From: a virus | Strand: one strand, 5' to 3' | Virus record (IMG/VR): IMGVR_UViG_3300028840_000749 | Location: 1-21,735 of that record | Length of the DNA: 21,735 nt | Part shown: positions 1-21,735 of the stretch, one piece after another | Position numbering within the stretch: the first letter of the stretch is position 1 | Layout of the letters: each line of letters starts with the position of its first letter | Notes under the pieces: model-generated | Database searches by the model: none | The model's input: only the letters and a program-made list of their open reading frames with translations | Told to the model about the DNA's origin: nothing | Translations under genes and position numbers: made by a program

Positions 1-27
1 TCAGTAGAATGTGGTAAAAAAGATTAA
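1..27 (+). CDS. Possible 3' end of an upstream gene (partial)
   Basis: Reading from base 1, the frame gives SVECGKKD and then a TAA at 25-27, two bases before the next ATG at 30. That spacing matches the tight packing of the rest of the window, so this may be the tail of a gene that starts outside. Only eight codons are visible, so nothing can be said about its function. Confidence 0.35.
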   Translation, partial: SVECGKKD

Positions 28-29
28 TT

Positions 30-332
30 ATGAAAAAGAATTATAAAAACTATTTAGACAACGTAGTTACTGAATGTTTTAACAATCATTTATCCTCTTT
101 AGATTGGGATAAAAATGACCCTATACAAAAAGCTATGTATTTGAGATTGCATGATGCTTCTAAACAATTAATTAGAAAAATGAAAGCAAATGTAATTAAT
201 ACATCTCATTGTAAAATTGATGCTTATGCTGATGACGATTTTTGTCATAATTATAGAAGTAGAGTTAATTGCAATGGGTGTGATTTTAATTTAAACGACA
301 ACTGTTCGGAAAAACCGAACAGTTCATTTTAG
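30..332 (+). CDS. Small Cys-rich hypothetical protein (100 aa)
   Basis: Unrecognised. The N-terminal 55 residues look helical and charged. The C-terminal part carries Cys61, Cys72, Cys81, Cys84 and Cys92, including a CNGC pair, plus His60 and His73, so it may bind a metal. The last ten or so codons are written by the arms of a perfect hairpin (300-324), so the residues after Cys92 are likely a by-product of an overlapping terminator. The start at 30 follows an AT-rich stretch with no Shine-Dalgarno, as for the other genes here. It stands before a non-coding stretch and so probably ends an upstream transcription unit. Function unknown. Confidence 0.7.
   Translation: MKKNYKNYLDNVVTECFNNHLSSLDWDKNDPIQKAMYLRLHDASKQLIRKMKANVINTSHCKIDAYADDDFCHNYRSRVNCNGCDFNLNDNCSEKPNSSF
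300..330 (+). terminator. Intrinsic terminator hairpin overlapping the end of the first gene
   Basis: A perfect 10-bp stem (AACTGTTCGG at 300-309 with CCGAACAGTT at 315-324) closes an AAAAA loop and is followed by CATTTT. The run of U is short, so efficiency may be modest. The hairpin lies inside the coding sequence, whose stop codon is at 330-332. Confidence 0.65.
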
Positions 333-412
333 GAAAGCGAGGGGAGAAAAAAAATAAATACGGTATGATTAGCACTAAACTTGATACGAGAACGGAACTA
401 AGCCATATTGTG

Positions 413-527
413 TACAACACCAAAACAAAGCGGCGTTTTAATGCACTTTGTTGGCTGTTATCGCGCGTTTTAATGCGCAGCGTATCTAACCGCTAGTCAC
501 TATTTTAATTTTTGTTTTGGTATTGTA
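413..527. repeat. Structured intergenic element: 17-bp inverted repeat enclosing two copies of a 12-mer hairpin
   Basis: Bases 413-429 are the reverse complement of 511-527 with one mismatch in 17. Inside are two copies of GCGTTTTAATGC (433-444 and 465-476). Each can fold on itself with a TTTA loop; the second is extended to GCGC/GCGC (463-466 with 475-478). AGCGG (429-433) can also pair with CCGCT (490-494). The base composition differs from the surrounding genes. It could be a structured RNA, a replication or packaging signal, or a degenerate mobile repeat. I cannot assign a family. Confidence 0.6.
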
Positions 528-546
528 AAAAAAACGCTTACATTTA
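516..546 (+). promoter_or_regulatory. Possible Bacteroidota-type promoter for the small-gene/recombination operon
   Basis: TTG at 517-519 and TACATTTA at 539-546 are 19 bases apart. The second box misses the TAnnTTTG consensus only in its last base. It would start transcription near 552, ahead of the gene at 582. It overlaps the right arm of the inverted repeat at 511-527. This is a weak match and may be chance in AT-rich DNA. Confidence 0.3.
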
Positions 547-581
547 CACCATACAAACACACACACAAAAACAAAAAAAAT

Positions 582-746
582 ATGGAAGTCAAGAAATGCA
601 AAAAATGCGAAAATGAGTTTCCGGCGACTAAGGAGTTTTTTTATAAAGATAGAAGTAGATTAATGTCACGTTGTAAAAATTCTTTTTGGGCTATTATTAT
701 TGTAGCGTACTTACTCTTTATGGCGCTAATAGTTTTTAATAATTGA
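582..746 (+). CDS. Small zinc-finger-like protein with C-terminal membrane helix (54 aa)
   Basis: The ATG at 582 follows an A-rich run and reads 54 codons to TGA at 744-746. The N-terminus, KKCKKC then ENEFPATKEFFYKD, is typical of short zinc fingers found in phage and HNH-associated proteins, which normally close with a second Cys-x-x-Cys. Here the second half keeps only SRC and then turns into a strongly hydrophobic stretch (about residues 34-52) that should cross the membrane. Either the finger was truncated and joined to a membrane segment, or the family has this form. It is followed at once by the gene at 748. Location is probably the inner membrane with the Cys-rich part in the cytoplasm. 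Role unknown. Confidence 0.6.
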   Translation: MEVKKCKKCENEFPATKEFFYKDRSRLMSRCKNSFWAIIIVAYLLFMALIVFNN

Positions 747-747
747 T

Positions 748-924
748 ATGTGGAAAGCTATAATTAAATTAATTAAAAAGTGGGCTTACCGGTGCAATCA
801 TAAATTTGAATTGATAGACCAAATTAGGGTTTATCATTACGAACTTGATGTTAGAATCAGGGTTGAATATCTTTTTATATGTAAAAAATGCGGAAAGTCT
901 AAAGTAATTAAAAGTAAAGATTAA
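748..924 (+). CDS. Small zinc-ribbon-like hypothetical protein (58 aa)
   Basis: The ATG at 748 comes one base after the previous TGA and reads 58 codons to TAA at 922-924. A basic, Trp-containing N-terminus is followed by CNH at Cys16 and, near the C-terminus, CKKCG at Cys45 and Cys48. The spacing of a C/H pair and a later CxxCG knuckle suggests a one-zinc ribbon of the kind common in small phage proteins. Coding status rests on the intact frame, the tight spacing to both neighbours and the plausible zinc-ligand pattern. The function cannot be told from sequence; nucleic-acid binding or a structural zinc are the obvious options. Confidence 0.55.
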   Translation: MWKAIIKLIKKWAYRCNHKFELIDQIRVYHYELDVRIRVEYLFICKKCGKSKVIKSKD

Positions 925-941
925 CTAATAAATAAAACGAA

Positions 942-1115
942 ATGTTAAAAAATGTAATTATCGTAAAGAAGAAAAAAAACTTCGAAACGTGGTCAAGCTT
1001 TACGGACCTTTGTAAAGCTCATGGCTTGCCTTACCATTCAATAAAAATGAATGCGTTTCCGATGAAAATAAACGGAATAATTAAAGTTAAACACAATGTT
1101 AAAACGCACGATTAA
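942..1115 (+). CDS. Small basic hypothetical protein (57 aa)
   Basis: The ATG at 942 follows an A-rich leader and reads 57 codons to TAA at 1113-1115, overlapping the start of the next gene (1096) by 20 bases in another frame. The product is Lys-rich, with the pattern TWSSFTDLCKAHGLPYHSIK followed by FPMKINGIIKVK. This resembles a compact helix-helix-strand domain I associate with small proteins in Bacteroidota phages, possibly DNA binding. That resemblance is from memory and unverified. It belongs to the same run of small co-directional genes. Confidence 0.5.
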   Translation: MLKNVIIVKKKKNFETWSSFTDLCKAHGLPYHSIKMNAFPMKINGIIKVKHNVKTHD

Positions 1116-1380
1116 TAAAGACAAGGCGGCACAATTAAGGAAAACTTTTCAAGGCAAAGCAGACTTTAGAGGCTTAAAATTTACCGTAAAAGAAGCGACC
1201 GAAAAAACATATTTAATTGAAATGCGTCACCAACGTTTAAATATTACGGCTTATCAAGTCATTGACAATGATAAAAGCGGGCAATATCCGCATAATAATA
1301 AAGAATTGGAGCTTTTAAATGTTTTTAGAACGAACCATTTAAAAGAAGCAAAAGAAAATTTTAATTCACGAAAAAATTAA
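1096..1380 (+). CDS. Hypothetical protein (94 aa)
   Basis: Not recognised. The 94-residue product is basic at both ends and mixed alpha/beta in look, with no membrane segment, signal peptide or metal motif. The start at 1096 overlaps the preceding small gene by 20 bases. It ends four bases before the next ATG (1385), which sits behind an AAGAAA tract. Its position at the head of the recombination module and its basic charge would fit a small DNA-metabolism accessory protein, but this is context only. Confidence 0.65.
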   Translation: MLKRTINKDKAAQLRKTFQGKADFRGLKFTVKEATEKTYLIEMRHQRLNITAYQVIDNDKSGQYPHNNKELELLNVFRTNHLKEAKENFNSRKN

Positions 1381-1384
1381 GAAA

Positions 1385-1585
1385 ATGGTAGCATTAGGAT
1401 TTGAAAATTTAGACGACGCAGTTAAATGGGCGCGTAAATTAAACGAATATCAAATTGTTTATTTATTGAACGGTTTATTTTATAATATACGAGCAACTTC
1501 AGAACTTCCGGAAGGCGCCGAAAAAATGGCTTCAATTGACCCAATTAATAAAGAAGTAGTAAAAATTTATAACGGTCCTTTATAA
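1385..1585 (+). CDS. Hypothetical protein (66 aa)
   Basis: Not recognised. It is short and soluble, with a predicted helix at residues 8-20 (NLDDAVKWARKLNEYQ) and then beta-like stretches ending in INKEVVKIYNGPL. The stop codon overlaps the next start by one base (TAATG at 1583-1587), so the two genes are probably translationally coupled. No motif supports a function. Confidence 0.65.
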   Translation: MVALGFENLDDAVKWARKLNEYQIVYLLNGLFYNIRATSELPEGAEKMASIDPINKEVVKIYNGPL

Positions 1586-1806
1586 TGGAGTTAAACGGAA
1601 AAGTCGAAAAATTCGAAAGCTTGGAGCAAATAGAGGTTGAAATGTACAAAGTGCAAAATATTTATTGGAAAAAAGATAAATATATTAATCTACTTGAAAA
1701 AAGACTTATTGAATTAAAGCAAAAACGAACCGAAGCTTTAAAACGATTCGAAAATTTAGACCAAATTCGCGGAAATTTCGCGGAAAATTACCAACTAATT
1801 AAATAA
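1585..1806 (+). CDS. Small coiled-coil hypothetical protein (73 aa)
   Basis: The product is almost entirely charged helix: residues 10-55 show heptad-like spacing of Leu, Ile and Tyr in Lys/Glu-rich sequence, as expected for a coiled coil. It overlaps the preceding gene by one base and ends five bases before the Rad50-like ATPase. It could be a partner of that ATPase, but nothing beyond adjacency supports this. No homologue recognised. Confidence 0.65.
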   Translation: MELNGKVEKFESLEQIEVEMYKVQNIYWKKDKYINLLEKRLIELKQKRTEALKRFENLDQIRGNFAENYQLIK

Positions 1807-1811
1807 ATAAA

Positions 1812-3530
1812 ATGGGAACTAAAGAACAAAAAACGGTTAAGATAATTGGCCTTTCTCTTAATCAAAATTTAGGAGTTTTAGAAGCTACAAAGTTAGAGTT
1901 TAACGAAAAAAATAATTTAATCGCGGTCCATGGTGAAGTTGGCAGCGGTAAAACGACGCTTCAAAAAGCTATTTCGTTGGGAACGCAAGGCAGCGAAACG
2001 CTGAAGGACGACAAAGCTTTATACGGTAATATTGATATTGAAGTTCAACTTTTAGACGGCGACAAGCCCGTTTTTGTGGGTTGTAAGACAATAAAAGGCG
2101 GAAAGCTTGAATATGTACTTTATACCAAAGACGAAGACGGTAAGAAGGTTGAAAATCCAATTATTGACGGCGTAGAAGCAACCCCGGCAAAATACTTGAA
2201 GTTACTTCAAACAAAATTAACATGGCGTTTAAATGAGCTTATAAGCGAAAATTCAAACGTTCAAAAGAAAATTTTATTGGATATTTATAAACCGGAGCTT
2301 GCAAAGCTTGGTATTATATTCGATAAAAACGCCGAAGGCTTCGAAGATTCTATTCTTGGCCAAATTGAAACGGCCGAAGAAAGGCGAACGACTGCGGACT
2401 TTCACCGGAAACATAAAGGCGGTTTTGCAAAGCATTTATTAACCGTTGGCGTAAATGTTGAAAACCCTTCAAGCGTTCCGGAGCGAAAAGACACGACTCA
2501 ATTAGAGGCGGACCGGAATAGGTTAAAATATGAGATTGAAAACTTTTCCGCAGACTTTGACGCAAAAAAGAAAAATAAAATTGACAAGCTAAAGAATGAA
2601 GGCGGCGAAATTGTTTTACAACTAAAGCAATTGAATGAAGAAATTAAAACAAATAACCAAGCTTTAAAAACGGCTTACAAAAGAAAAGAAGAAAGCGCGG
2701 CCGGGCGAAATTTAGCGTTAAGCGAATTAATTAAAAACACAAACGATTTTTGGCGCAAGTATTCCGTTAACATGGAGTCAACAATTGATACTTTTGAGAA
2801 CTTAAAAATCAATTCAATTGATGCTTTTGATGAAACGACACTTTCGAAGGAATTAACTTTTGACGAGTTCGGAAATATCACTTCTAAACCGGATTTAAAA
2901 GCTTTTCCGCAACTTATTTGTAATTTACTTGAAGACCTTTCGAAATTACGTAAAAAGGTCTTAGCGGTCCGCGCTGAAGTGTTGGAAGGCGGAACGGAAA
3001 AGTTAGAATTAGAACTTGAAGAAATTAACAAGAAATTAAAGAGCGCCGAAGAGTTAAACACTATTTGCGACGCTTGCGACGCCTTTTTTGAATGGCAGAC
3101 AGAAAATAACGAAGTTTTAAAATTAAAAGCAGACTATGCGCGTAAACTTGCGGAAGTTCAAACCGGAGTAAATGGCTTAAAAATTACGGCGGACGAAAAA
3201 GAAAATATTTACTTGGAATATAACGGCGCTTATGACCCGGCTTATTTTGGAAACGACGCGCAAGAATTTAGAAAACTTTCGAGTTATTCAGATACACAAA
3301 AACCGGTAATTTGTTTATTATTACAATCGCATTTATTAAATAAAATGCCAAAGGCAATGCGTTATTTATGGATTGACCGCGTGCCAATTGATAAGAAAAC
3401 AAAAGCATTACTTGAAAAAATGGGTAAAGATTTAGGCGTTACAATCTTTTTAAACATTACGGGCGACTTTACAAAAAGCGCGTTAAAAGACGGCGAAATA
3501 TTAATTGAAAACGGACACTTATTATTTTAG
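1812..3530 (+). CDS. Rad50/SbcC-like SMC-type ATPase
   Basis: A 572-residue ABC/SMC-family ATPase. The N-terminus has a Walker A P-loop, GEVGSGKTT (residues 41-49). Helical, coiled-coil-rich sequence fills about residues 225-300 and 375-460. A degenerate ABC signature (LSSYSDTQ, about 488-495) is followed by a Walker-B-like strand YLWID (518-522). The residue after that Asp is Arg rather than the usual Glu, so hydrolysis may be unusual. CDAC at 419-422 has the CxxC form of a Rad50 zinc hook. It is far shorter than cellular SbcC/Rad50 and has no Mre11/SbcD nuclease next to it. It precedes an OB-fold-like protein and a YqaJ exonuclease, so a role in DNA-end processing or recombination is inferred. 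The ATP-binding assignment is solid; the exact family is not. Confidence 0.8.
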   Translation: MGTKEQKTVKIIGLSLNQNLGVLEATKLEFNEKNNLIAVHGEVGSGKTTLQKAISLGTQGSETLKDDKALYGNIDIEVQLLDGDKPVFVGCKTIKGGKLEYVLYTKDEDGKKVENPIIDGVEATPAKYLKLLQTKLTWRLNELISENSNVQKKILLDIYKPELAKLGIIFDKNAEGFEDSILGQIETAEERRTTADFHRKHKGGFAKHLLTVGVNVENPSSVPERKDTTQLEADRNRLKYEIENFSADFDAKKKNKIDKLKNEGGEIVLQLKQLNEEIKTNNQALKTAYKRKEESAAGRNLALSELIKNTNDFWRKYSVNMESTIDTFENLKINSIDAFDETTLSKELTFDEFGNITSKPDLKAFPQLICNLLEDLSKLRKKVLAVRAEVLEGGTEKLELELEEINKKLKSAEELNTICDACDAFFEWQTENNEVLKLKADYARKLAEVQTGVNGLKITADEKENIYLEYNGAYDPAYFGNDAQEFRKLSSYSDTQKPVICLLLQSHLLNKMPKAMRYLWIDRVPIDKKTKALLEKMGKDLGVTIFLNITGDFTKSALKDGEILIENGHLLF

Positions 3531-3533
3531 AAA

Positions 3534-4052
3534 ATGGAAAGCGAAAAATTAACACATTGGAAAAAGTTAAAGAACAAAACTTTTTTGGGAGCTTGGGACA
3601 TTGAACCCGGAACAATGCCAGACGTCACAATTATAGGCGTCGGAAAAGCTACGGCGAAAGCAAACCAAAAAGCCCCGGAAGAAGAAGTTGATGTTATTTA
3701 TTTCAAGGAATTTGATAAAGGAATGATTTTAAATAATGTTAATTCGGACCAAATTAGCAAGGTTTTACAAACTCCATTTGTTGAGCAATGGAATAATAAG
3801 CGGGTTAAACTATTCGTAAAAAAAGGCGTTAAAAAACCGGGACAAAAAGACCCGGTTGAGGCAATACGAATTTCAAACACGTTGCCGGCTCCAATAGCAA
3901 AGGAAAAAACTTTTTTAACTCCGGACCTTTCGACAACGTGGGAAAATGCAGTTGACGCAATTAAAAAAGGCGTGGGAATTGAGAAAATAAAATCGCGTTA
4001 TAAACTAACTGAAGAAAACGAAAAATTACTTTTAAGCCATGGAGCCAAATAA
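3534..4052 (+). CDS. Probable ssDNA-binding (OB-fold-like) recombination protein
   Basis: A 172-residue soluble protein. Its core (about residues 10-115) alternates beta strands in the order FLGAWDIEPG, VTIIGVGKA, VIYFKEFDKGMILNNVN, WNNKRVKLFV and VEAIRISN. This matches a conserved phage pattern (a Lys-Met-Ile-Leu-Asn core, then W-x-x-K-x-V-x-L, then alRI) seen beside phage recombinases. I read it as an OB-fold ssDNA-binding protein, perhaps doing the job of gp2.5 or a SSB. The C-terminus (about 125-172) is a helical tail. The gene sits three bases after the ATPase and overlaps the exonuclease start by 14 bases, so co-translation is likely. The fold is inferred from pattern only; an annealing role is possible. 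Confidence 0.5.
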   Translation: MESEKLTHWKKLKNKTFLGAWDIEPGTMPDVTIIGVGKATAKANQKAPEEEVDVIYFKEFDKGMILNNVNSDQISKVLQTPFVEQWNNKRVKLFVKKGVKKPGQKDPVEAIRISNTLPAPIAKEKTFLTPDLSTTWENAVDAIKKGVGIEKIKSRYKLTEENEKLLLSHGAK

Positions 4053-4809
4053 AAAATATAATGAGTTTACTCCGGAGCCGGACGATTTAGAAGACAAAGA
4101 AATTATTTGGTTAAGGCAGCGCGCCGGAAATTTCACCGGGTCCGAAAATTATAAGTTAATGAAATGCAGCTCGGCAACGTCAAAATTAAGTTGGGGCGAC
4201 CCGGCTAAGTTGTTAGGCTTTGGCGCTCCAACTCATGCTTATATTTTTCAAAAAGCCATGGAGCGGCGCACGGGCTTTTTAAGTCACGCGTCAAAAGCTT
4301 TTAATTTGACTTACGGAAATGAAAACGAACCGTTGCTTGCTGAAGAGTTCGAAAGGCAAACGGAATTTTACGGCTTTAAAAAATGCGAATTTATGCTTTC
4401 GGACCAAGTCGAAAATTTAGGCGCAACCCCGGACGGCGAAGTTGCGCGAAAAGAAGGACTTCAACGGCTCCGGGTTGACTATGCCGCAGAATTAAAAAGC
4501 TGCGTTTCGTGGGACGGTTTTAAAAAGCGTATGGGTTGCATATTAGATGAAACGCACGGGGATTTTTGGCAATGGATTACAGAAATGCACGTTTTAGGAG
4601 CTTCAAAGCTTGTGTTTGTTGTTGCTTATCCTATGGAATACAAGTATTTCGAAAATAGAATTATTGATTTATCAACGATTCACGAAGACGCTTTAATTGA
4701 GCGCGTAAAGATAGCCAACGACGCAATAAATGAGTTTAATAAAGATAAAGCTTTTATAATTGAACCGTATATTAAAGCCGCAATTGAAAAATATAAATTA
4801 AATTCGTAA
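4039..4809 (+). CDS. YqaJ-like viral exonuclease (lambda-Exo-type, PD-(D/E)xK)
   Basis: A 256-residue nuclease with the YqaJ order of motifs: WLRQR (24-28) and FTGSEN (32-37) near the N-terminus; YGNENEPLLAEEFERQT (92-108), matching the G-x-x-x-E-P-x-A helix; the acidic motif ATPDG (129-133, Asp132); ELK (151-153), giving the Glu-x-Lys of the PD-(D/E)xK active site; and WQWITEMHVLG (177-187) with the conserved Gln/Met helix. This family digests one strand of duplex DNA 5' to 3' to make ssDNA for annealing. It overlaps the preceding OB-like gene by 14 bases and closes the recombination module. A 40-residue stretch between motif 1 and the GNENEP helix looks longer than usual. Confidence in the family is high. 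Confidence 0.85.
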   Translation: MEPNKKYNEFTPEPDDLEDKEIIWLRQRAGNFTGSENYKLMKCSSATSKLSWGDPAKLLGFGAPTHAYIFQKAMERRTGFLSHASKAFNLTYGNENEPLLAEEFERQTEFYGFKKCEFMLSDQVENLGATPDGEVARKEGLQRLRVDYAAELKSCVSWDGFKKRMGCILDETHGDFWQWITEMHVLGASKLVFVVAYPMEYKYFENRIIDLSTIHEDALIERVKIANDAINEFNKDKAFIIEPYIKAAIEKYKLNS

Positions 4810-4820
4810 AATATATTTAT

Positions 4821-4833
4821 TAAATTTGCGTCT
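4821..4833 (+). promoter_or_regulatory. Bacteroidota -7 promoter box immediately upstream of a start codon
   Basis: TAAATTTG at 4821-4828 is a perfect match to the TAnnTTTG -7 element. Only five bases separate it from the ATG at 4834, so transcription should start at or very near the A of the start codon, giving a leaderless or near-leaderless message. No convincing TTTG/TTG -33 box is seen at the right distance; TTCG at 4803-4806 is the closest. Confidence 0.5.
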
Positions 4834-5139
4834 ATGAGTGTTTACGAAAATGAAGTGTGTTTTTTACAAAGTTGCACAACCGCACAAGCCAAAGTTTCCG
4901 CATTAGATTTAATAATTGATGCTTTGTTATTGGCTTCAGTTGATGCGGGTAATACGGTAGATTCGCAAGGCTATAACCTTGACGACGGACAAACAAAAAT
5001 TAAACGGGAATATCGAAGCCCGTCCGAAATAGTGGACGCGTTGACCGGGTTCGAACGAATGCGAAATTATTATATTGCAAAGTGTACCGGGTCTGTTATT
5101 CAATTAAGAAATCAAGACACTATTAAACGACGTTGGTAA
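4834..5139 (+). CDS. gpW-like head-completion (head-tail joining) protein
   Basis: A 101-residue protein placed two bases before the portal gene, the position of gpW in lambda. Its C-terminal half fits the gpW pattern: a short beta hairpin (TKIKREYRSP, about 54-63), a helix (SEIVDALTGFERMRNYYIAK, about 63-82) and a basic tail ending in KRRW. The N-terminal helix (about 14-36) is hydrophobic-rich. gpW plugs the portal after DNA packaging and offers the site for the next connector. At 101 residues it is longer than lambda gpW. The assignment rests on order and pattern, so it is moderate. Translation should start at or near the 5' end of the mRNA, given the -7 box at 4821-4828. Confidence 0.5.
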   Translation: MSVYENEVCFLQSCTTAQAKVSALDLIIDALLLASVDAGNTVDSQGYNLDDGQTKIKREYRSPSEIVDALTGFERMRNYYIAKCTGSVIQLRNQDTIKRRW

Positions 5140-5140
5140 T

Positions 5141-6691
5141 ATGGATTTATTAAAATTTTTCGGATTAAAACGAATTGAAGAACCTATTGAAGAGCCGCAA
5201 AAAATGGTACACCCGGAAGCGTGGACCATGTTTAACGAGCCTTACGACGGTGAAAAAGAGCCGGGCGACATTGGAGTTATAAAGGATTATTATGTTAGTC
5301 ATTACGCTTTAGCTTATCGAAGTTGGCAAGCTTATCTTGATAGCGACGTTGCGCAATTGATACTTAGTAAATTTTTAAAATGGGTCGTTGGTTCCGGGTT
5401 AAGATTAAACGCGGACCCGGACGAAATAGTTTTAGCTTCTGAAGGAATAACGGCGTTAAATGAAGACGAATTTTCAAATTTAACCGAAAGCCGTTTTAAA
5501 GTATATTCAAATGCTAATTTTTCGAGCCATTCGGGCGAAGAAAGCCTTCAAACATTAGCTTTTGAAGCGTATAAAGCCGCTATTATTGGCGGGGACGTTT
5601 TAGTTGTTAACCGGGTTGAAAATAAAAACATAACAACGCAATTAATTGATGGAAAATATATTATTACTCCAAGCGACGGCCAAGCTGAAGAAGCGGAAAA
5701 GCGCGGTAATAGAGTTGTTGACGGCGTAGAAATTGACAAGAACGGTAAGCACGTTGCTTATTTTGTAGAAACTGAAGACTTGAAATATAAGCGAATAAAA
5801 TCTTTTGTAAATGGTCAAAGATTTGCTTATTTGGTTTATGGCCGAAGGTATAAAACGAACGACCTTCGAGGTATTCCGTTAATCCAAGCGGTACTTGATA
5901 CAATTGCAAAATTAGACCGGTATAAAGAAGCGACCGTTGGAAGCGCCGAAGAGCGTCAAAAAATCGCTTATTCAATTGAACATGATGTTGACGGACAAGG
6001 GCAAAACCCTTTATTGTCGCAGCTTAAAAAAGTCCCGGTTGCTTCGGTTACGGACGAAGGCCAACTTGACATTGCACAAAAGTACATTGCAAACACAATG
6101 CAAAAGCAAGCCATTAATTTACCCGCGGGCGCGAAGCTTAACTTATTAGAATCGCGGAACGAATTATATTTTGAAAGCTTTATGACTATCAATATGCGGT
6201 TTTTATGCGCAACGGTTGAGATTCCTATGGAAGTGGCTCTTTCTTGGTTTGATTCGAATTATTCAGCAAGTCGAGCGGCTTTAAAAGATTGGGAGCATAC
6301 GTTGAGCGTAGAGCGTGAAAAGTTTTCAAGGCAATTTTATCAAAATATTTATTCGAATTGGTTAAACGTTGAAGTTTTACTTAATAGAATTAATGCGCCG
6401 GGATATGTGAAAGCGTTTAATGAGCGTAACGAAATGGCAATTAATGCTTATCAAACCGCGACGTTTATAGGTGCAAATATTCCGCATATTGACCCAATGA
6501 AGGAAGTTCAAGCGGAAAGGCTTAAACTTGGAAGTCAAACAATACCATTAACAACGGCGCAAGCGGCAACCGAAGCTTTAAACGGTGGCGACTTCAAAGC
6601 GAATGTTAACCAATACAGAAGAGAAATTGAAGAGGCGGACGGAATAAACGAGCCGCCGGCTCCAATAGAGCAAAATGGACCAAATGAATAA
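5141..6691 (+). CDS. Phage portal protein (lambda gpB family)
   Basis: The 516-residue product has the landmarks of the lambda-type portal family: an acidic N-terminus with WTMFNEPYDGE, an SFVNGQRFAYLVYGRRYKTNDLRG block, LDRYKEATVGSAEE, LPAGAKLNLLES, then EIPMEVALSWFDSNYSASRAALKDWEH, whose NYSxxRAAL core is diagnostic. Length is close to lambda gpB. The protein forms the dodecameric ring at one capsid vertex through which DNA is packaged. Lambda gpB is processed, and the protease downstream could do this here. It lies directly after the gpW-like gene. Its end is followed by an intrinsic terminator at 6773-6799, so portal and gpW form a short transcription unit. No terminase lies before it, which is unusual. 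Confidence 0.92.
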   Translation: MDLLKFFGLKRIEEPIEEPQKMVHPEAWTMFNEPYDGEKEPGDIGVIKDYYVSHYALAYRSWQAYLDSDVAQLILSKFLKWVVGSGLRLNADPDEIVLASEGITALNEDEFSNLTESRFKVYSNANFSSHSGEESLQTLAFEAYKAAIIGGDVLVVNRVENKNITTQLIDGKYIITPSDGQAEEAEKRGNRVVDGVEIDKNGKHVAYFVETEDLKYKRIKSFVNGQRFAYLVYGRRYKTNDLRGIPLIQAVLDTIAKLDRYKEATVGSAEERQKIAYSIEHDVDGQGQNPLLSQLKKVPVASVTDEGQLDIAQKYIANTMQKQAINLPAGAKLNLLESRNELYFESFMTINMRFLCATVEIPMEVALSWFDSNYSASRAALKDWEHTLSVEREKFSRQFYQNIYSNWLNVEVLLNRINAPGYVKAFNERNEMAINAYQTATFIGANIPHIDPMKEVQAERLKLGSQTIPLTTAQAATEALNGGDFKANVNQYRREIEEADGINEPPAPIEQNGPNE

Positions 6692-6772
6692 AAAAATAAA
6701 TAGTTCGTTTATTTTTATTAAATTGCGCAAGTTCTTGAAAATAAACGTTCCCATTTTCTTTATTTTCGTTTT

Positions 6773-6799
6773 AAAGCCGGCTTTATTGTCGGCTTTTTT
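6773..6799 (+). terminator. Intrinsic terminator after the portal gene
   Basis: A stem formed by 6773-6781 (AAAGCCGGC) and 6788-6796 (GTCGGCTTT), with one G-U pair, closes a TTTATT loop and runs into a stretch of T (6794-6799). It sits in the 151-base gap between portal and protease, ahead of the next promoter, so the two units appear separately transcribed. Confidence 0.8.
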
Positions 6800-6809
6800 A
6801 ATTTTTATG

Positions 6810-6838
6810 TTGTAATTAAAAAAAGTTTTATATTTTTG
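6810..6838 (+). promoter_or_regulatory. Bacteroidota-type promoter for the head/tail gene cluster
   Basis: TTG at 6810-6812 and TATTTTTG at 6831-6838 are 18 bases apart. They match the -33 TTG and -7 TAnnTTTG elements of Bacteroidota within the usual 17-23 spacing. The ATG at 6843 starts four bases after the box, so the transcript should be leaderless or carry only a few bases. It follows a terminator, which supports it as a true start of a transcription unit. Confidence 0.65.
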
Positions 6839-6842
6839 TTGC

Positions 6843-7856: not shown

Positions 7857-7868
7857 AAAATTAGAAAA

Positions 7869-8312: not shown

Positions 8313-8324
8313 AAATATATAAAA

Positions 8325-9404: not shown

Positions 9405-9413
9405 TTCTAAAGT

Positions 9414-9677: not shown

Positions 9678-9683
9678 ATTTTT

Positions 9684-12663: not shown

Positions 12664-12674
12664 AATAAAATATA

Positions 12675-13249: not shown

Positions 13250-13253
13250 TTAA

Positions 13254-15206
13254 ATGGCAGCTTTTCAAGTCCCGGTAATTTTTAGCGCTATTGACAAAAT
13301 GAGCGCACCGATTCGACGAATGCAAGGCGCAACGCGTGGCTTTGCTAATACCGTTGGAGTTGCTGAAGCTAAAGTTGTAAGGGGTTTCCGTTCAATGACC
13401 CGCGCCGTTGGTCAATTCGGTATTGCTTTAGGCGCTACGGCGCTTATAATGATAGGCGGTAATGCAATAGGTATATTTAAAGACTTCGAGCAAGCCAACG
13501 CCAATTTGGCGGCGGTAATGCAAAAAACCGTTGGCGAAACGCAAGCGCTACAAAATAGCGCTAAAACTTTAGGGGCAACGACTTCGTTTACCGCTTCTGA
13601 AGTCGTCGCGCTTCAAACTTCTTATGCGAAGCTTGGATTCGTTGAAGACCAAATTTTAAATATGACCGCGTCAACGCTTGCACTTGCAGCGGCGACCGGT
13701 ACGGACTTGGACCAAGCAGCCACGCAAGTAGGGGCCGCGCTTAATGCGTTTGGCCTAAAATCGACCGAAGCGGCACGGGTTGCGGACGTTTTCGCTCTTG
13801 CTTCAAGTAAGACGGCTTTAGATATGGAAAAATTGGCCGGCTCCATGGATAAAGTGGCGCCGGTAGCTAAACAATTTGGTTTTGGAATTGAAGATTCAAC
13901 GGCTTTACTTGGAAAATTAGTCGATGCCGGCTTTGATGCTTCAACGGCCGGAACGGCAACCAAAAATATTATGCTTAATATGGCGGACGCAAACGGAAAA
14001 CTTGCGAAAGCTTTAGGCGGTCCGGTTACGTCGCTCGAAGACATGACGCAAGGAATGATTGCGTTAAGGGAAAAAGGTATTGACTTGACGACAATGCTTG
14101 ATTTAACCGACAAACGAAGCGTTGCGGCTTTTGCGACGTTCTTAGAAGGTTCTGAAAGCTTGGTTGTACTTTCCGACGCTTTAAAAAATGCCGCCGGCGC
14201 TGCGCAAGGTATGGCGGACAAACAACTTGATACGCTTGAAGGTAGTTTGATAAAATTAAGTTCAGCTTACGAAGGATTTATTTTAAGCATGGAAGACGGA
14301 ACCGGGCCTTTTGCAAAAACGTTGCGTTTAACGGTTGACGTTGCGGCGGCTATTTTGTCAATGGCTGCGGGAGTAGAGCAAGCGAACGGGCCGTTAACAG
14401 AACGCGCGACACTTGTTAAAGAATTAGCCGGTAAAACGTTATTAGTTTTAAAAATTATTAAATGGACTATTGCGGCTTATATAGGGCTTAAAGTTGTCAT
14501 GGCGGCCGTTACCGCTGCGACTTGGTTATATAATACCGCACAAGCTTTAAGTTTAGCTTTTCAAGGTAAAACGCTTTTATTTCTCAAAGGAAATACCGCG
14601 GCAATGGTAATTTATAAGATTGCAATGTTTGCCGTTACGGCCGCAACTTGGCTTTGGAATACTGCGCAAGCAGCTTTAAATATTGTTATGACGGCCAACC
14701 CAATAGGTTTAATTATCGCAGCAATAGCGCTTTTAATTGGACTTGTTACCGCGGTTGTTGTTAAATATAAAGATTGGGGCGCAGCTATTACGCTTTTAAT
14801 GGGTCCGCTTGGAATGATTATAAACTTAGTTATGAGTTTCGCGCGCCATTGGGACAGTATAACAGAAGCGTTTTCAAGTGGGGGAATTTTAGCCGGCTTA
14901 AAAAGAATTGGATTAGTTTTATTTGATGCTATTTTAATGCCGTTGCAACAAATGCTTGAATTGCTTTCAAACCTTCCGGGAATTGGTGACTTAGCCGCAG
15001 ACGGTGCCGCAGCAATTGAAGGGCTTCGCGCAAACTTAGATTTAATTAACCCGGAAGCAGATAAAGCCGGGGCGCAAGTGGATAGAGAAGAGCGCGTTGA
15101 ACAACAAAAACTTGATATAAATATTAATAATAAGTCGGGCGGACAAGCGGACGTTGAAAGCTCCGGAGATATTACGCCGACAATAACGCCAACTTTTGCT
15201 TTTTAA
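13254..15206 (+). CDS. Tail tape measure protein (TP901-type)
   Basis: The 650-residue product starts four bases after the frameshift extension ends. Residues 70-265 match the conserved TP901-type core: FEQANANLAAVMQKT, TLGATTSFTASEVVALQTSYAKLGF, AATGTDLDQAATQVGAALNAFGL, ASSKTALDMEKLAGSMDKVAPVAKQFG and DASTAGTATKNIMLNMAD. Hydrophobic segments follow at about 40-60, 395-435, 455-475 and 480-510, probably the parts that enter the host membrane. Two near-identical blocks (AVTAATWL-Y/W-NTAQA) recur 42 residues apart. The protein sets tail length; at 650 residues it implies a short to medium tail. The C-terminus is polar and Asn/Thr-rich. Family call is firm. Confidence 0.92.
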   Translation: MAAFQVPVIFSAIDKMSAPIRRMQGATRGFANTVGVAEAKVVRGFRSMTRAVGQFGIALGATALIMIGGNAIGIFKDFEQANANLAAVMQKTVGETQALQNSAKTLGATTSFTASEVVALQTSYAKLGFVEDQILNMTASTLALAAATGTDLDQAATQVGAALNAFGLKSTEAARVADVFALASSKTALDMEKLAGSMDKVAPVAKQFGFGIEDSTALLGKLVDAGFDASTAGTATKNIMLNMADANGKLAKALGGPVTSLEDMTQGMIALREKGIDLTTMLDLTDKRSVAAFATFLEGSESLVVLSDALKNAAGAAQGMADKQLDTLEGSLIKLSSAYEGFILSMEDGTGPFAKTLRLTVDVAAAILSMAAGVEQANGPLTERATLVKELAGKTLLVLKIIKWTIAAYIGLKVVMAAVTAATWLYNTAQALSLAFQGKTLLFLKGNTAAMVIYKIAMFAVTAATWLWNTAQAALNIVMTANPIGLIIAAIALLIGLVTAVVVKYKDWGAAITLLMGPLGMIINLVMSFARHWDSITEAFSSGGILAGLKRIGLVLFDAILMPLQQMLELLSNLPGIGDLAADGAAAIEGLRANLDLINPEADKAGAQVDREERVEQQKLDININNKSGGQADVESSGDITPTITPTFAF

Positions 15207-15208
15207 TT

Positions 15209-15679
15209 ATGGATATAGCTTTAAAATCAACGGGAAACGGCGGCGACTTTATACTTTCGGGCAATGACATTGAAAGCACTTCAAGCCTTTACAATCAAGT
15301 TTATCTTGCTTTGTTTGGTGGTAACGTCGAAGATTCAACAAAACGGAATTATGCAGCCGGTGAAGAGCGCCTTGACTATTGGGCTAATTCTTTGCTTTAT
15401 GAAAACAAACCAATTGAGCAATTTAATAGCAGTACAGAAAGAGAATTAAAAAACGTATCTTTGACGAGCGCCGGAATTATAAGAATTGAACAAGCCGTTA
15501 AAGTTGATTTATCTTTTATTTCGGAGCTTGGAAATTATGAAGTTGAAGTTTCTTTTTTAGAAAACAATCAACTTTCAATTGAAGTTAAACTTTTGGAACC
15601 AAGCGGCGAAAAGTCGCAAGCTTTGAATTTCATTTGGGACGCTTCGCGAAATGAAGTAATTAATACAGAAATAATTTAA
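15209..15679 (+). CDS. Baseplate protein, Mu gp46 / T4 gp25-like
   Basis: The 156-residue product opens with MDIALKSTGNGGDFILSGNDIE and has ALFGGNVEDSTK, EERLDYWANSLL, EQFNSSTERELKNV and IIRIEQAVKVDLSF. This order (GGDF, an LFGGN loop, WWGN-like text, NSSTERxL, IExAVKxDL) agrees with Mu gp46-type proteins, which do the job of T4 gp25 at the start of the sheath in the baseplate wedge. It is followed six bases later by a gp47/J-like gene, the canonical pairing. Length is near Mu gp46. It starts two bases after the tape measure, so the usual genes for tail hub and spike are not between. Confidence 0.78.
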   Translation: MDIALKSTGNGGDFILSGNDIESTSSLYNQVYLALFGGNVEDSTKRNYAAGEERLDYWANSLLYENKPIEQFNSSTERELKNVSLTSAGIIRIEQAVKVDLSFISELGNYEVEVSFLENNQLSIEVKLLEPSGEKSQALNFIWDASRNEVINTEII

Positions 15680-15684
15680 AAAAA

Positions 15685-16857
15685 ATGGCCGTTCAAATTC
15701 CAACGATAAAAGAACTTTACAATTCGATTTTAAACGATTTAAACACGGAATTAAATATTACAATTCCGTTTTTCGGCAAAAATATTTTACGGGCAATTGC
15801 AAGCGTTCAAGCTGCGAAACTTAAAATATATTATTATTTCACCGCTGAAGTACAAAAAAACGTTTTTCCGGACCAAGCAGATAGCGAAATAAACGGGGGG
15901 ACCCTTGAAAGGTTTGGGCTTGTAAAGCTTGGAAGAAGCCGTTTCCCGGCGGTTGCTGCAATTTATCAAGTTGTTGTTTTTGGTGACGCGGGGGCAGTAA
16001 TAAAGGCAAGTCAAACTTTTAAAAGTAATGACGATTCGGCGAACCCCGGACAACTTTTTATTTTAGATAATGAATATACTTTAACCGGTATTACTGACAA
16101 TATCCAATTGCGCGCGCTTGAAGGCGGGACCGTAAGCGAATTATCAATTAGCGATAATTTAACGGCTACGTCACCGCTTTTAAATATAAATGACGAAGTA
16201 ACCGTTAATTTAGTTGTAAACACGCCAACGGACGCCGAAACAACGGAGCAATACAGAAGTAAAATTTTAGAATCGTACCGTTTAGAGCCACAAGGCGGGG
16301 CGGCTTCAGATTATAGACTTTGGGCCGCGGACGCGGTCGGAGTTCGAACCGTTTACCCTTATGCGGTTACGGCAACAAGTAACACAATTGACGTTTACGT
16401 TGAAAGCGCAAGCGCTCCGGGTACCGCTCCGGTCGATATGCTTGCAGACGTTGCGGCGGTTATAGAGCAAGACCCGGACACAACAAAGCCGTTAAACGAA
16501 AGGGGGCGCCGTCCGCTTGGAATTTTGCAAGTAAATACCGTTTCGGTCATTCTTTTAGATATTGACATTACAATTACGGGATTAGCTACAAACGACGCGG
16601 AAACACAAAGCACAATTTTAAACGCTTTAACGGAATATTTAAAAACGGTTCGGCCATTTATTGCCGGGGCCGACGCGCTTAATTTAAAGAATGATATTTT
16701 AACCGTCGGAAAGCTTTCTTTAGTTGTTCAAGATGCTATCGGATTGGGTAATTATTTTAATTCGTTAAGTTTTACAGTTGATGGCAACCCAATAACTTCA
16801 AGTTTTCTTTTTAACAACGGTAATATTCCGCTTATTAATACAATAACTTACGTATAA
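15685..16857 (+). CDS. Baseplate protein J (Mu gp47 / T4 gp6-like)
   Basis: The 390-residue product is of Mu gp47 size (360). Its landmarks fit baseplate J: IPTIKELYNSILNDLN at the N-terminus, an A-x-x-Q/K helix (ILRAIASVQAAKLKIYYYF), NGGTLERFGLVKLGRSRFPA for the tsLerwG pattern, VIKASQTFKSND (the gtvi.ag strand), GGTVSELSISDNLT, TDAETTEQYRSKILESYRLEPQGGAASDYRLWAADA (the wedge core, about 180-215), and GVRTVYPYA. J-type proteins form the wedge around the hub. It begins five bases after the gp46-like stop. The typical next gene, tail protein I, is absent; a large fibre follows two bases later. Confidence 0.9.
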   Translation: MAVQIPTIKELYNSILNDLNTELNITIPFFGKNILRAIASVQAAKLKIYYYFTAEVQKNVFPDQADSEINGGTLERFGLVKLGRSRFPAVAAIYQVVVFGDAGAVIKASQTFKSNDDSANPGQLFILDNEYTLTGITDNIQLRALEGGTVSELSISDNLTATSPLLNINDEVTVNLVVNTPTDAETTEQYRSKILESYRLEPQGGAASDYRLWAADAVGVRTVYPYAVTATSNTIDVYVESASAPGTAPVDMLADVAAVIEQDPDTTKPLNERGRRPLGILQVNTVSVILLDIDITITGLATNDAETQSTILNALTEYLKTVRPFIAGADALNLKNDILTVGKLSLVVQDAIGLGNYFNSLSFTVDGNPITSSFLFNNGNIPLINTITYV

Positions 16858-16858
16858 T

Positions 16859-18796
16859 ATGGCCGACAAGATTTTACCTTTTGATACTATTTTGACGCCT
16901 TCGGGTCGGGAGATTAATATAAAATCAAGTTGGGAATATTCCGAAGTTGAAATTGTAGTTGATAAAGACACGGAAATTACTATAAAAAGCAATTTACCGG
17001 CCGTCACGCAAGATATTATTGTTGAATGGGCGGACAACTCCGAATTTGATTTTGGAGTTGAAAACGGCGGCCTTTTAGCTTTTGTTAAAAGTTACGGTTC
17101 GCCTTTTTCCGGAAGTATTTATTTATTGGGTAAAGAAAATTTAAACGTTATAACGTACATTGAATTTGAAAACGGACTTACTAAAATTGATTATAATCAA
17201 ATTTCAAACGCGCCGTTAACCGATTTAATTATTGGTGAAAAAAGCGCGGTAAATGGAAACGTTTCGAATTTACCGGCAACAATTGAATTTATCGACGACC
17301 AAGGAATTAGCGAAATAACAAATTATACGGGCTTTGTTTTTGCTCCCGGAATGCGTCGTTTACGATTGCGGCCAATTTTTCCGTTTTTCCTTTTTTCCGG
17401 ATTAGTGGACCAACTTTTAATTGATGCTTCTTTAACAACTTGGCAGCCCGGCGCAATTATTGATTTGGCCGGATATAACGCACCAAGAACGGCGGCTTCA
17501 GACCAAGCCGTTATTGATTTACAAGCGCAAGGCGTCACGGTAACGGTAAATTCTACAAATCAAAACAATGATTATTACATGTATAATAATCAATTTGACA
17601 ATTTAAATACCGCAAGCGAATTGCAGCTTGCCGCGGGTTCTTATATTGATTTAACGACAACAAGCGCCCAACCAATTGAGTTAAACGGGCCTTGGTTTTT
17701 TCAATGGGTAAATAATAATATTACCGGACCGCAAATTTTATTTGGCGGCACAAGTACGGATTATGAAATTAAAATAAATGGGGCCGGAATTGTAAGCGTA
17801 AACGCACAAGACGGGGTTTATACTCCGGTTTCTTTTACTTACGCATTATTGCCAAATAAAGTTTATACTTTACAAAGCGACGGGGCAAGCCGTTTTATTT
17901 TATTTGAAAACGGTTCCGAAGTTGATAATATAGCGGCCGGCTCAAATATTCCGGTATTTTTTAGAACTTCTTTTATTGGGTTTTCTACTCCGATAGGACC
18001 AACTTTAAATTTAATGGCTTACGCTTCGCTTGGAGTGAATGGCGTTAAGTTGCACGAATATTTATTTAATGAAAGTAGCGGCTTAAATATTTATGATTCA
18101 ATTGGCGGGTTTCATGCTACTTTGGAAGGCGGCGCGGAAATTTGGAATTTAGGTAAAAATACGCCAATTCAAGCCGGCACGCAAATAGCTTTAAATAGTT
18201 GGAATAATACCGGCGGGGTAATTATTCCGGAAAACAAAAATAATTTAGGTTTTGACGTTTTAGGCGCCGCAATTACGCGGCCAAGTATTGAGGGGAAATA
18301 CAACTTTCCGGGATTGGTAAATAATGGTTTTAATGCTACAAATTTTTTAGATAGAAGCACACGCGGGACTGATATTTATTTAATGAATTATCAAGCTTTT
18401 TTAACTCCCGGAATGTTTATTTGCGGGGACGACATTTATAGTCATTCAATAGATAATACCGGGGTTTGTACTTTTAATTTTGGCGGCGGTTCTTTTTCAG
18501 TTCCGGCGGCACAACTTCAAGCGGGAGTTACTTATATGATTATTTTCATGGTTGACGGCGGCGGTGGTGGTGAATTTATACTTGCAGATTATGACAACGC
18601 GCCGCAAAGTGTAGGAACCGGCGCAGTAGGTCCGGGAGCCGTTGCGGTTCAAACTATGAGTTACGGAAATGTTTTAGTTGACCCGGCGCCAAATAAAAAT
18701 TTCGACGGTTATATTAGTAATGCGGTACACTTTCCGAGGGATTTAAACGCGCAAGAAATACTTCAAGCTTGGTATTATTACAAGCGATTTTTTTAA
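16859..18796 (+). CDS. Large tail fibre / receptor-binding protein with lectin-like domains
   Basis: The 645-residue product starts one base after the J stop. An N-terminal beta domain (1-130) is followed by a leucine-rich-like stretch (about 160-231) with LLIDASLTTW, IIDLAGYNAPRTAAS and AVIDLQAQGVTVTVN, a layout seen in Bacteroidota surface and phage proteins. Two concanavalin-A/laminin-G-like regions seem present: about 255-370 (YIDLTTTSAQPIELNGPW, VYTLQSDGASRFILFENGSEV), and about 405-645 (YDSIGGFHATLEGGAEIW, then the jelly-roll end FDGYISNAVHFPRDLNAQEI). Such lectin domains bind sugars, so a role in host recognition is inferred. The final segment YYYKRFF may act as a tip. The domain names are by pattern. 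Confidence 0.65.
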   Translation: MADKILPFDTILTPSGREINIKSSWEYSEVEIVVDKDTEITIKSNLPAVTQDIIVEWADNSEFDFGVENGGLLAFVKSYGSPFSGSIYLLGKENLNVITYIEFENGLTKIDYNQISNAPLTDLIIGEKSAVNGNVSNLPATIEFIDDQGISEITNYTGFVFAPGMRRLRLRPIFPFFLFSGLVDQLLIDASLTTWQPGAIIDLAGYNAPRTAASDQAVIDLQAQGVTVTVNSTNQNNDYYMYNNQFDNLNTASELQLAAGSYIDLTTTSAQPIELNGPWFFQWVNNNITGPQILFGGTSTDYEIKINGAGIVSVNAQDGVYTPVSFTYALLPNKVYTLQSDGASRFILFENGSEVDNIAAGSNIPVFFRTSFIGFSTPIGPTLNLMAYASLGVNGVKLHEYLFNESSGLNIYDSIGGFHATLEGGAEIWNLGKNTPIQAGTQIALNSWNNTGGVIIPENKNNLGFDVLGAAITRPSIEGKYNFPGLVNNGFNATNFLDRSTRGTDIYLMNYQAFLTPGMFICGDDIYSHSIDNTGVCTFNFGGGSFSVPAAQLQAGVTYMIIFMVDGGGGGEFILADYDNAPQSVGTGAVGPGAVAVQTMSYGNVLVDPAPNKNFDGYISNAVHFPRDLNAQEILQAWYYYKRFF

Positions 18797-18805
18797 TTTA
18801 GCAGA

Positions 18806-19276
18806 ATGAAGCAAAAAATTATAAAAATTTGGGATTGGTTTTATAAAATTGCGGGTCAATATTTAAAAACAATTGTTTTTATTAGTTCAATTTCAACGGC
18901 GGCTTGGTGGGGTTTTGGTCCGCGCATTATGATAGAAGTAAACGGCGCTTTCGATTCTATTCTTACGCCTAAATTAGAAAAAAGGGATTCGATTCGAGAT
19001 ATTCAACGAAACGTTGAAATTTACACTATGTTTTTAAAAGCTTTAACCGATACAACTTTTTTAAACAAGGTTGAAGTTATAATTGAAACGACAACGGACA
19101 AAGTCGTTGATAAAAAGTTAACCGGCGTAATGCGTCGCGAAATGGTTTTAAAAATAAAAGAAATGGTAAAAGATACGGTTTGGATTATTAACGCAAATAC
19201 CGGCAACGAAATTGGTTATGATGTTTATCATTTTTACAACGGGGGCGTTATTAAAGTAGCAGAAAAAAGATTTTAA
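18806..19276 (+). CDS. Membrane-anchored hypothetical protein (156 aa)
   Basis: A basic N-terminus (KQKIIKIWDWFYK) leads into one hydrophobic segment at about residues 18-38 (QYLKTIVFISSISTAAWWGFG), followed by a long charged domain rich in coiled-coil-like helices (IRDIQRNVEIYTMF, DKVVDKKLTGVMRREMVLKIKEMVKD). This looks like a single-pass inner-membrane protein whose bulk could face the periplasm. Lysis proteins and phage membrane adaptors have such architecture. No known family was recognised. It lies between two fibre genes, with only nine bases from the preceding gene and 35 before the next, so it is part of the late unit. Confidence 0.55.
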   Translation: MKQKIIKIWDWFYKIAGQYLKTIVFISSISTAAWWGFGPRIMIEVNGAFDSILTPKLEKRDSIRDIQRNVEIYTMFLKALTDTTFLNKVEVIIETTTDKVVDKKLTGVMRREMVLKIKEMVKDTVWIINANTGNEIGYDVYHFYNGGVIKVAEKRF

Positions 19277-19311
19277 CCTATAATAAATATTTAACCTTTA
19301 AAAAAAATAAA

Positions 19312-19605
19312 ATGATGTTTGACACAATGCCGGTTTACCTTGGTTATTTGATACTCGTCGCTTTGATAGTCGATATATCCCTACATTGGCCGACGCCGCG
19401 CAAAGTATTAGAATACGAAAATAAAAGCTTACGAGAAGAAGCAACGCAAAACAATATATATATTAACGATTTACAAAAGAACGTTAAAAGGATGCGAGAT
19501 AAAGAGCTTAGAAGAGATAAAGAAATGAGAGATTTGGAACAAATAGTTACAATCTTGGCAGAAGCGCAAGGAATAAAAGATTGGAAAAAATTATTAAAAA
19601 AATAA
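19312..19605 (+). CDS. Small membrane protein with coiled-coil tail (97 aa; spanin-like architecture)
   Basis: Two ATGs (19312, 19315) begin the frame; either fits, and I keep the first. A hydrophobic segment (about residues 8-24, YLGYLILVALIVDISLHW) anchors the N-terminus. Residues 35-85 form a charged, heptad-like coiled coil (VLEYENKSLREEATQNN, NDLQKNVKRMRDKELRRDKEMRDLEQIV). An N-terminal membrane helix plus periplasmic coiled coil is the layout of inner-membrane spanins (lambda Rz), but no outer-membrane lipoprotein partner is seen in another frame. The role as lysis factor is speculation. The leader before it is AT-rich with no clear -7 box. Confidence 0.55.
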   Translation: MMFDTMPVYLGYLILVALIVDISLHWPTPRKVLEYENKSLREEATQNNIYINDLQKNVKRMRDKELRRDKEMRDLEQIVTILAEAQGIKDWKKLLKK

Positions 19606-19614
19606 TTTAAAGAT

Positions 19615-21735
19615 ATGGCAGTAAAAATAAATTGGGAAGATAAGCAGAATATAAAAACAAACCCATTACCCGAAAAAAATAAAAGTACTGCCGCGACTTG
19701 GAACGAAACTAAAAACGCAGTAAATGCGAACGCGGACGAATTAGACGCGTTAAGTCAAGAAGTTGACGTTAATATAGTGGAAATTCAAGACATTAAAGAC
19801 GAGCTTGTAAATACAGTAAAAACAATAGTTCCCGGCGCTAATGTTGCGGTTAATTCAATTGACCCGGAAAACCCTATTGTTTCGGCTTCTATTTCTACAA
19901 GCGCCGGTATTTTATCAAGGTTGTTTTTTACCGCACAAGAAACGATTTTATCGGCCGGTACTTTTTATGATACGTTGCGAAATGATAAAGGGCTTATCGG
20001 TAGCGTGCAACAAGTCGTTGTTTCTAATGATAACACAATTGAATATTTTTTACAAGATTTAATTAGTATTCCGGCACTTTCGGACGACGAAGTTCCAATT
20101 GGTACTTATTCCGGTTTTTTTTCCGTTGAAGCTAATAGCGTAGCGGGCGACGCGGCGCGTTTTGGTTGTGAAATTTATCTTGCAGATGAAAACGGCAACG
20201 TCATTGATTCGGGAGTTGTAGGCAATCCGATTGGCTCTTATGGCGTTCGGGTAATTGGTTTATTGAGTAGCGGAAATGTAGAAATTCCCGCAAACTTTGA
20301 AACACAAATAAACGTTACGGGCGTCCTTACGTCACCGGCTCCTTATTTAGCCGGGCAGCGTTTTAGGTATAGAACTTTTGCGGAAAAAATAGGAACGCAA
20401 GGCGGGCCAATTACGTTTTCTATTTATTACGGGTTTGACCATAATACATATATTGACGTACCTACTATAAACACCACGGACAATACTGTTAACGTTTCTA
20501 AAAATCCGGGTGTAACCACAACGGACGCTTTAAATTCTCTTTATGATAAAACAACCCCGGAAACCGTAATTGGTGAATGGGAATTTTTGGCAAATTGGGA
20601 CGAAGGCGGCCCCATTCCGGCCGGTAAAATTCAAAATTTAGACGGTGAAACCGCCGGCGCTAATTTTGGAATGTTTTTCAATCCTATTGATAAAAACGCG
20701 GTTGACCATACGACACTTTTAAATCAAATAAAAGAAGTTCCTTTTACGCTTAATTGGTTCGAAAATGGGGTTTTAGTTCACACTATTATAAACACGGTAA
20801 CGGAATTTTATGATTCGATTGATACTGAATGGTGGCTTTTTTGGTTGGACCCGCCAAATACGGGCGACGCTTTCGATTTTGGTACTTATCCGGCGGACGG
20901 CGTAACGGTAAAGCTTTCAATTCCTACAAATTACATAACAGAAGCGCCAAGCAATCAATATGGTTATGTTAGGCAAAACGGCGCTTGGTCCAAAGGATTA
21001 ATTCCACAAATACAAACCGAAGGCGGCGACAATATAATTAGAGAAGTAACAAACGATTGGCTTGGAAGCGGGTCCGCCGTTGCTAATGGAATAATTAATT
21101 TTGATGCGAATGAATGGGCTGAAAATCTTTTTAGTTCGTTCGCTTTTTCTCAAAATCAAAGCGGTGGAACAAGTGAATTGCCATTTATTCAAACTTTAGA
21201 AGGGACAAATATAACTTTTGTTGATTCTTTAGACACGGGGAATTTTCTTATTGTTGATAAAGCGGTATTAGTAGAAAATCCGGCCGGTACGTGGATAGTT
21301 TCAAGGTTTGACACAGAAAATTTTTCATTTTCTAAAGGAGCGCCGGCGCTTGGAATAAATGTTTTTATTGGGTCGCCTATTGAAAACATTACTAAAATAA
21401 TTTCAAGCAATGGAACGGTTGAAATTTCGCAAACTGATAGCTTTAATATTGATTTAAAAGCAGTAAATACGCTTCAGTTTTCCGCAGCGTTAAGCGACGA
21501 AACAACGCCTTTAGCAGTTGGCCGCGTATTTTCAAAACGTGTTAAAATACCATTCAATTTATTAGATTATAGCTTTGACGTTGACGTTGCGCCAACGGGC
21601 GGACCAATTACGTTAGATGTTTTGAAAAATGGCGTTTCGATTTGGAGCGTTAAGCCAACTATTGCCGCAAGTGGATTTTTAAGCAGCGGCGGCGTTTTAC
21701 TTACGACCCCAACGCTATATTTAGAAAGTGATAAA
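19615..21735 (+). CDS. Very large tail fibre / virion surface protein (partial, 3' end beyond window)
   Basis: The frame opens at ATG 19615 and runs without a stop through the last base, 707 codons so far. The N-terminus (MAVKINWEDKQNIKTNPLPE, TWNETKNAVNANADELDALSQ) is a short adaptor and coiled coil, typical of fibres that dock on the baseplate. The rest is Gly-, Asn- and Thr-rich beta sequence lacking membrane segments, with repeated shallow blocks. Near the end, LDYSFDVDVAPTGGPITLDVLKNG and IWSVKPTIAASGFLSS match a small jelly-roll-like fold frequent in fibre tips, where the next strands would follow. It probably acts in adsorption. It begins nine bases after the small coiled-coil membrane gene. 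Confidence 0.7.
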   Translation, partial: MAVKINWEDKQNIKTNPLPEKNKSTAATWNETKNAVNANADELDALSQEVDVNIVEIQDIKDELVNTVKTIVPGANVAVNSIDPENPIVSASISTSAGILSRLFFTAQETILSAGTFYDTLRNDKGLIGSVQQVVVSNDNTIEYFLQDLISIPALSDDEVPIGTYSGFFSVEANSVAGDAARFGCEIYLADENGNVIDSGVVGNPIGSYGVRVIGLLSSGNVEIPANFETQINVTGVLTSPAPYLAGQRFRYRTFAEKIGTQGGPITFSIYYGFDHNTYIDVPTINTTDNTVNVSKNPGVTTTDALNSLYDKTTPETVIGEWEFLANWDEGGPIPAGKIQNLDGETAGANFGMFFNPIDKNAVDHTTLLNQIKEVPFTLNWFENGVLVHTIINTVTEFYDSIDTEWWLFWLDPPNTGDAFDFGTYPADGVTVKLSIPTNYITEAPSNQYGYVRQNGAWSKGLIPQIQTEGGDNIIREVTNDWLGSGSAVANGIINFDANEWAENLFSSFAFSQNQSGGTSELPFIQTLEGTNITFVDSLDTGNFLIVDKAVLVENPAGTWIVSRFDTENFSFSKGAPALGINVFIGSPIENITKIISSNGTVEISQTDSFNIDLKAVNTLQFSAALSDETTPLAVGRVFSKRVKIPFNLLDYSFDVDVAPTGGPITLDVLKNGVSIWSVKPTIAASGFLSSGGVLLTTPTLYLESDK

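Follow-up and report, generated by a model that had tools for sequence, protein, structure and literature searches.

Avoidance of restriction sites by phages is well documented, GATC included. In the dsDNA phages studied by Rusinov et al. 2018 (PMC6286503), 4-base palindromes, GATC among them, have been nearly or fully eliminated through synonymous choices, and complete or almost complete elimination of a site was reported for roughly one viral genome in ten. All 46 phages with a host that encodes the matching enzyme had fewer copies than expected of GATC, a Type IIM site; Type I and Type IIG sites were not avoided, and Type III sites only very rarely (PMC6286503). MboI, DpnII, Sau3AI and DpnI all recognise GATC, and a GATC restriction-modification system with MboI as prototype has been described in Bacteroidota (Pin25611FII of Prevotella intermedia; PMC5608340). 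The loss of GATC in the phage analysed here is real but ordinary in kind. It differs from the published cases in that the asymmetric word CCWG has been nearly eliminated as well.

The window, by which we mean the whole 21,735-nucleotide stretch under study, is the structural half of a contractile-tailed phage, and its main genes all lie on the + strand (Table 1). Ficleduovirus FCV-1 (NC_041845), whose host is Flavobacterium columnare, has a homologous and syntenic head-tail module, with the order portal, head protease, decoration, major head, sheath, tube, tape measure and baseplate common to both phages. Protein identity is 50% in the sheath and 36% in the portal. The window belongs to a distantly related, Ficleduovirus-like myovirus, for which we do not claim membership of the same genus. 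Unlike the window, FCV-1 retains GATC (50 copies vs 86 expected) and instead avoids CCGG (3 vs 22 expected) and GGCC (6 vs 25 expected). The isolates closest to the window have hosts in Flavobacterium and Cellulophaga, and the uncultured phage that it represents probably infects Bacteroidota. When the sheath was used to search genome contigs for a host, there was one match, in a contig binned in a Phycisphaerales MAG, which is probably itself a phage contig.

Table 1. Genes recognised in the window, with the family or profile matches on which the assignments are based
Feature	Position	Strand	Match
AAA_23-type ATPase	1812..3530	+	Pfam PF13476 5.5e-8
YqaJ/RecE-like recombination exonuclease	4039..4809	+	phrog_149 1.3e-16; PF09588 8.6e-5
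Portal protein	5141..6691	+	phrog_21 4.4e-50
Head maturation protease	6843..7856	+	phrog_133 8.5e-26
Head decoration protein	7869..8312	+	phrog_49 2.2e-13
Major head protein	8325..9404	+	phrog_29 3.6e-34
Head closure protein	9684..10067	+	phrog_4598 1.6e-20
Tail sheath	10703..12235	+	phrog_165 2.3e-84; 50% identity to Flavobacterium phage FCV-1 sheath
Tail tube protein	12256..12663	+	phrog_4699 4.7e-37
Tape measure protein	13254..15206	+	phrog_28, phrog_1533 (about 1e-47)
Two baseplate wedge genes	15209-15679, 15685-16857	+	phrog_180 8.4e-19; phrog_6 4.6e-33

The final 9,549 bases of the window recur at 99.97% in a second record of this phage, L040, which continues for another 2,965 bases; apart from L040, no other contig of the phage was recovered in a search. 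Family and profile searches of the window and L040, which together are a partial phage genome, did not find a methyltransferase, in agreement with an earlier note on the window. A DpnII-family search of the window's record and three further records gave no match.

An exact count of GATC in positions 1..21735 gave 0, which holds for both strands as the word is a palindrome, and the 2,965 bases added by L040 are likewise free of it. This bears out the earlier note, in which the word was reported as wholly absent from 21.7 kb where chance would give 60-80 sites: base composition alone predicts 74.8. Stricter nulls expect fewer, because the sequence of the window is strongly skewed. Markov simulations (100 each) contained a mean of 31.3 GATC (minimum 16) at order 1 and of 15.0 (minimum 5) at order 2. 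For the coding part, shuffling of synonymous codons resulted in a mean of 33.2 (minimum 20; 400 replicates), and a maximum-entropy null that preserves both codon usage and the dinucleotides at codon boundaries in a mean of 19.5 (minimum 7; 300 replicates). A shuffle in which the amino acid, the first base and the next base were fixed had a mean of 6.4 and some replicates with zero. It was discarded as invalid because, conditioned on the following base, GAT|C cannot arise, and the maximum-entropy model was used in its place. All valid nulls thus expect 15-33 copies and zero was reached by no replicate, including those of the Markov and codon-shuffled kinds proposed in the earlier note. The count of GATC falls far below what composition and codon use would lead one to expect, and its absence is confirmed as real and significant. 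Leaving CTAG apart, the six other palindromes that contain one of each base are present in 23-87 copies each. The neighbouring words had been described as common, which is true of GATA (100) and GATT (130), less so of GATG (40), and does not apply to AATC (46) and TATC (44), as ATC overall reaches only 0.27 of its base-composition expectation.

The avoidance has left its trace in codon choice. Before a codon starting with C, aspartate is encoded by GAC in 42 of 42 cases and never by GAT, exactly as had been noticed by eye, while before A, G or T the two codons are used almost equally (GAT 165/327, GAC 162/327). The difference from the GAT share elsewhere (0.50) has a probability of P=2e-12, and when the choice of T-ending codons before C is compared between Asp and Asn, Tyr and His, P=2e-8; in this position, AAT was kept 12 times for Asn and TAT 16 times for Tyr. 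Gly and Arg codons ending in GA precede TC in 0 of 29 cases, as compared with 215 of 622 elsewhere (P=8e-6). ATC follows a G-ending codon in 0 of 39 cases, where about 2 would be expected. GATC is missing from each of the three frames in which it could arise (GAT|C, xGA|TC and xxG|ATC). In the tail sheath, there are 11 dipeptides at which relatives carry GATC and the window encodes the same residues by synonyms, such as Asp-His (GATCAT in a relative, GACCAC in the window) and Lys-Ile (AAGATC and AAGATT, respectively). Together with the differences between lineages described below, these observations are good evidence that GATC has been selected against as a word.

GATC is neither the sole nor the strongest gap. 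The whole window contains single copies of CTAG, CCAG and CAGG and not one CTGG or CCTG, gaps that the earlier note did not mention. With CCAG/CTGG present once (42.6 expected in the coding part) and CAGG/CCTG once (about 33 expected there), the gap in CCWG exceeds that in GATC, and CCGG is in excess (137 vs 81.5 expected). Proline before G is written CCG or CCC 90 times out of 91, and a Trp codon after a C was seen in 0 of 76 cases. The main body (1091..21735; 20.6 kb) has no GATC, CTAG or CAGG/CCTG and a single CCAG/CTGG, at 3618. Positions 1..1090 are AT-rich (GC 30%) and hold the sole CTAG (493) and the sole CAGG (858), and again no GATC. The leftover copies of CTAG and CAGG are mostly confined to this segment and to the gene at 10081-10755 of L040, both without GATC, and these two regions are possibly recent acquisitions. 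Trinucleotide use is extreme as well: ATC, CTC, CTG and GTG reach 0.27-0.29 times the expected number and CGG and GCG 2.7-2.9 times, and the CpG ratio of the window is 1.76. G/C and A/T bases are clumped, with S-S neighbours 1.37 times more frequent than expected, and throughout the window the third codon base tends to match the class of the first base of the next codon.

We compared about 60 related loci. Near-complete loss of some palindrome was common among them, and the word lost varied. GATC is near zero in the window, L002, L004, L010, L028, L030, L035/L036, L056/L057 and L061; CCGG is nearly lost in L010, L011, L022 and L043-L047, CTAG in L003, L011 and L060, and CATG and GGCC in L053-L057 and L060. 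Some relatives avoid none of these words. The sheath tree accounts for the distribution of GATC avoidance with 4 changes of state, of which 3 are forced by well-supported branches. Avoidance of GATC among the kin of the window is thus lineage-specific and not common to the whole family. This loss of different Type II words in different lineages fits restriction and does not fit a mutation bias shared by all. A conserved HpaII-like system directed against CCGG has been reported in the related Flavobacterium psychrophilum (PMC11837570). Among the relatives, the parent contigs of L013 and L039, both of which keep GATC, carry genes for Dam-family methyltransferases. L047, and in part L046, lacks the asymmetric word CATC/GATG (0 vs 25) alongside CCGG (0 vs 35).

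The absence of GATC beyond every valid null, in all three frames, and with different avoided words among relatives is established here, and we infer a restriction enzyme as the likeliest agent. One or more hosts with a GATC-cutting enzyme, either of the MboI/DpnII/Sau3AI type or of the DpnI type that cuts methylated GATC, would have exerted long selection on the phage lineage; variants that lost a site by synonymous change would have survived more often, until no site was left. We give long selection by GATC-cutting host restriction a probability of roughly three in four. The two enzyme types leave the same trace and are indistinguishable from sequence. Several findings count against this reading. 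CCWG and CTAG are also missing and the composition is unusual (CpG 1.76, excess of CCGG), and given these features part of the pattern may stem from a broader cause. Moreover, relatives that avoid GATC are not clearly poorer in methyltransferases than those that do not; such genes were found in 1 of 4 avoiders and 11 of 16 non-avoiders, which is a trend only (P=0.26). Of the MboI/Sau3AI-type host restriction suggested in the earlier note, the selection on GATC holds, but the single-enzyme story is incomplete because GATC is one of several nearly absent words, and a DpnI-type enzyme fits equally well. Host restriction is probably right in kind as an interpretation and incomplete since other words are missing too. 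As to the further expectation that the loss could help name the host range, loss of GATC by itself is too common to identify a host. If restriction was the agent, the window is a clean natural case of complete restriction-site loss, with a codon trace in every frame and relatives that lost different sites, and such sets of phages make it possible to read which restriction systems acted on which lineages.

The composition of the window raises the question of whether GATC, CTAG and CCWG could have become rare without any restriction, through a neighbour-dependent bias of mutation or repair that produces an excess of CpG and makes isolated weak bases between strong ones rare; Vsr-like repair turning CTGG into CCGG would be an example. 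The extreme trinucleotide skews speak for such a bias, as do the excess of CCGG alongside the near-total lack of CCAG/CTGG and the depletion of CCAG in the CpG-rich relatives L035, L036 and L038. Nevertheless, we regard it as an unlikely explanation for the loss of GATC. Nulls that keep trinucleotides, or codon usage together with boundary dinucleotides, still expect 15-20 GATC, and a bias of this kind rarely produces exactly zero; before C, GAT falls to nothing while AAT and TAT persist, and GATC has also been lost in L002 (CpG 0.43) and L010 (CpG 0.75), which do not have such a composition.

A still smaller probability, in our view, attaches to an explanation that has been debated for phiX174, in which the phage escapes Dam/MutH-dependent mismatch repair or the effects of Dam/SeqA. 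The phiX174 genome is, like the window, entirely devoid of GATC, and added sites lower its mutation rate (PMC5014478). However, phiX174 is small, has ssDNA and grows on a Dam+ MutH+ host, whereas the window comes from a large, tailed phage with dsDNA, and the isolates nearest to it infect Bacteroidota. The explanation requires a host with Dam and MutH, and MutH is largely restricted to gammaproteobacteria; the hosts of the nearest isolates are Flavobacterium and Cellulophaga, although the sheath also matched Vibrio phages. It would, in addition, leave the avoidance of other words in sister lineages unexplained. As the record is a single fragment of a metagenomic virus, chance or an artefact of assembly or library preparation, for instance breakage at GATC, must also be considered, but we judge this to be extremely improbable. 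Chance is contradicted by every valid null; the second record, L040, agrees at 99.97% and lengthens the GATC-free stretch, and breakage at GATC sites of normal density could not leave a contiguous coding stretch of 21.7 kb without the word.

The gap in CCWG calls for separate treatment. Avoidance of CCWGG (Dcm/EcoRII) was rejected as its cause, since the lack of CCAG and CAGG extends to almost every flanking context; two relatives, L053 and L061, lack CCWGG alone, yet keep CCAG and CAGG. Both orientations of CCWG are missing from the coding strand, from which it follows that the cause acts on DNA, and a cause at the mRNA level is unlikely. To our knowledge, CCWG matches no Type II target, and a literature search for CCWG as a target of methylation or restriction found none. 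Several overlapping restriction systems are a possible source of the gap, and so is a repair bias that turns CTGG into CCGG. That the lineage was selected, besides GATC, against the asymmetric and degenerate CCWG itself, by a host defence with an undescribed target, is a tentative idea that we consider rather doubtful. Such selection would be unusual, as near-elimination of asymmetric targets has rarely been reported, and it would point to a host target that is not yet described.

Some longer words are scarce, too. In the window together with positions 9550-12514 of L040, ACAGC/GCTGT was found once (16 expected at order 2), GAGAC/GTCTC once (12 expected) and CCTCC/GGAGG not at all (7 expected). 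GAATTC is missing from the window, where 7.7 copies would be expected.
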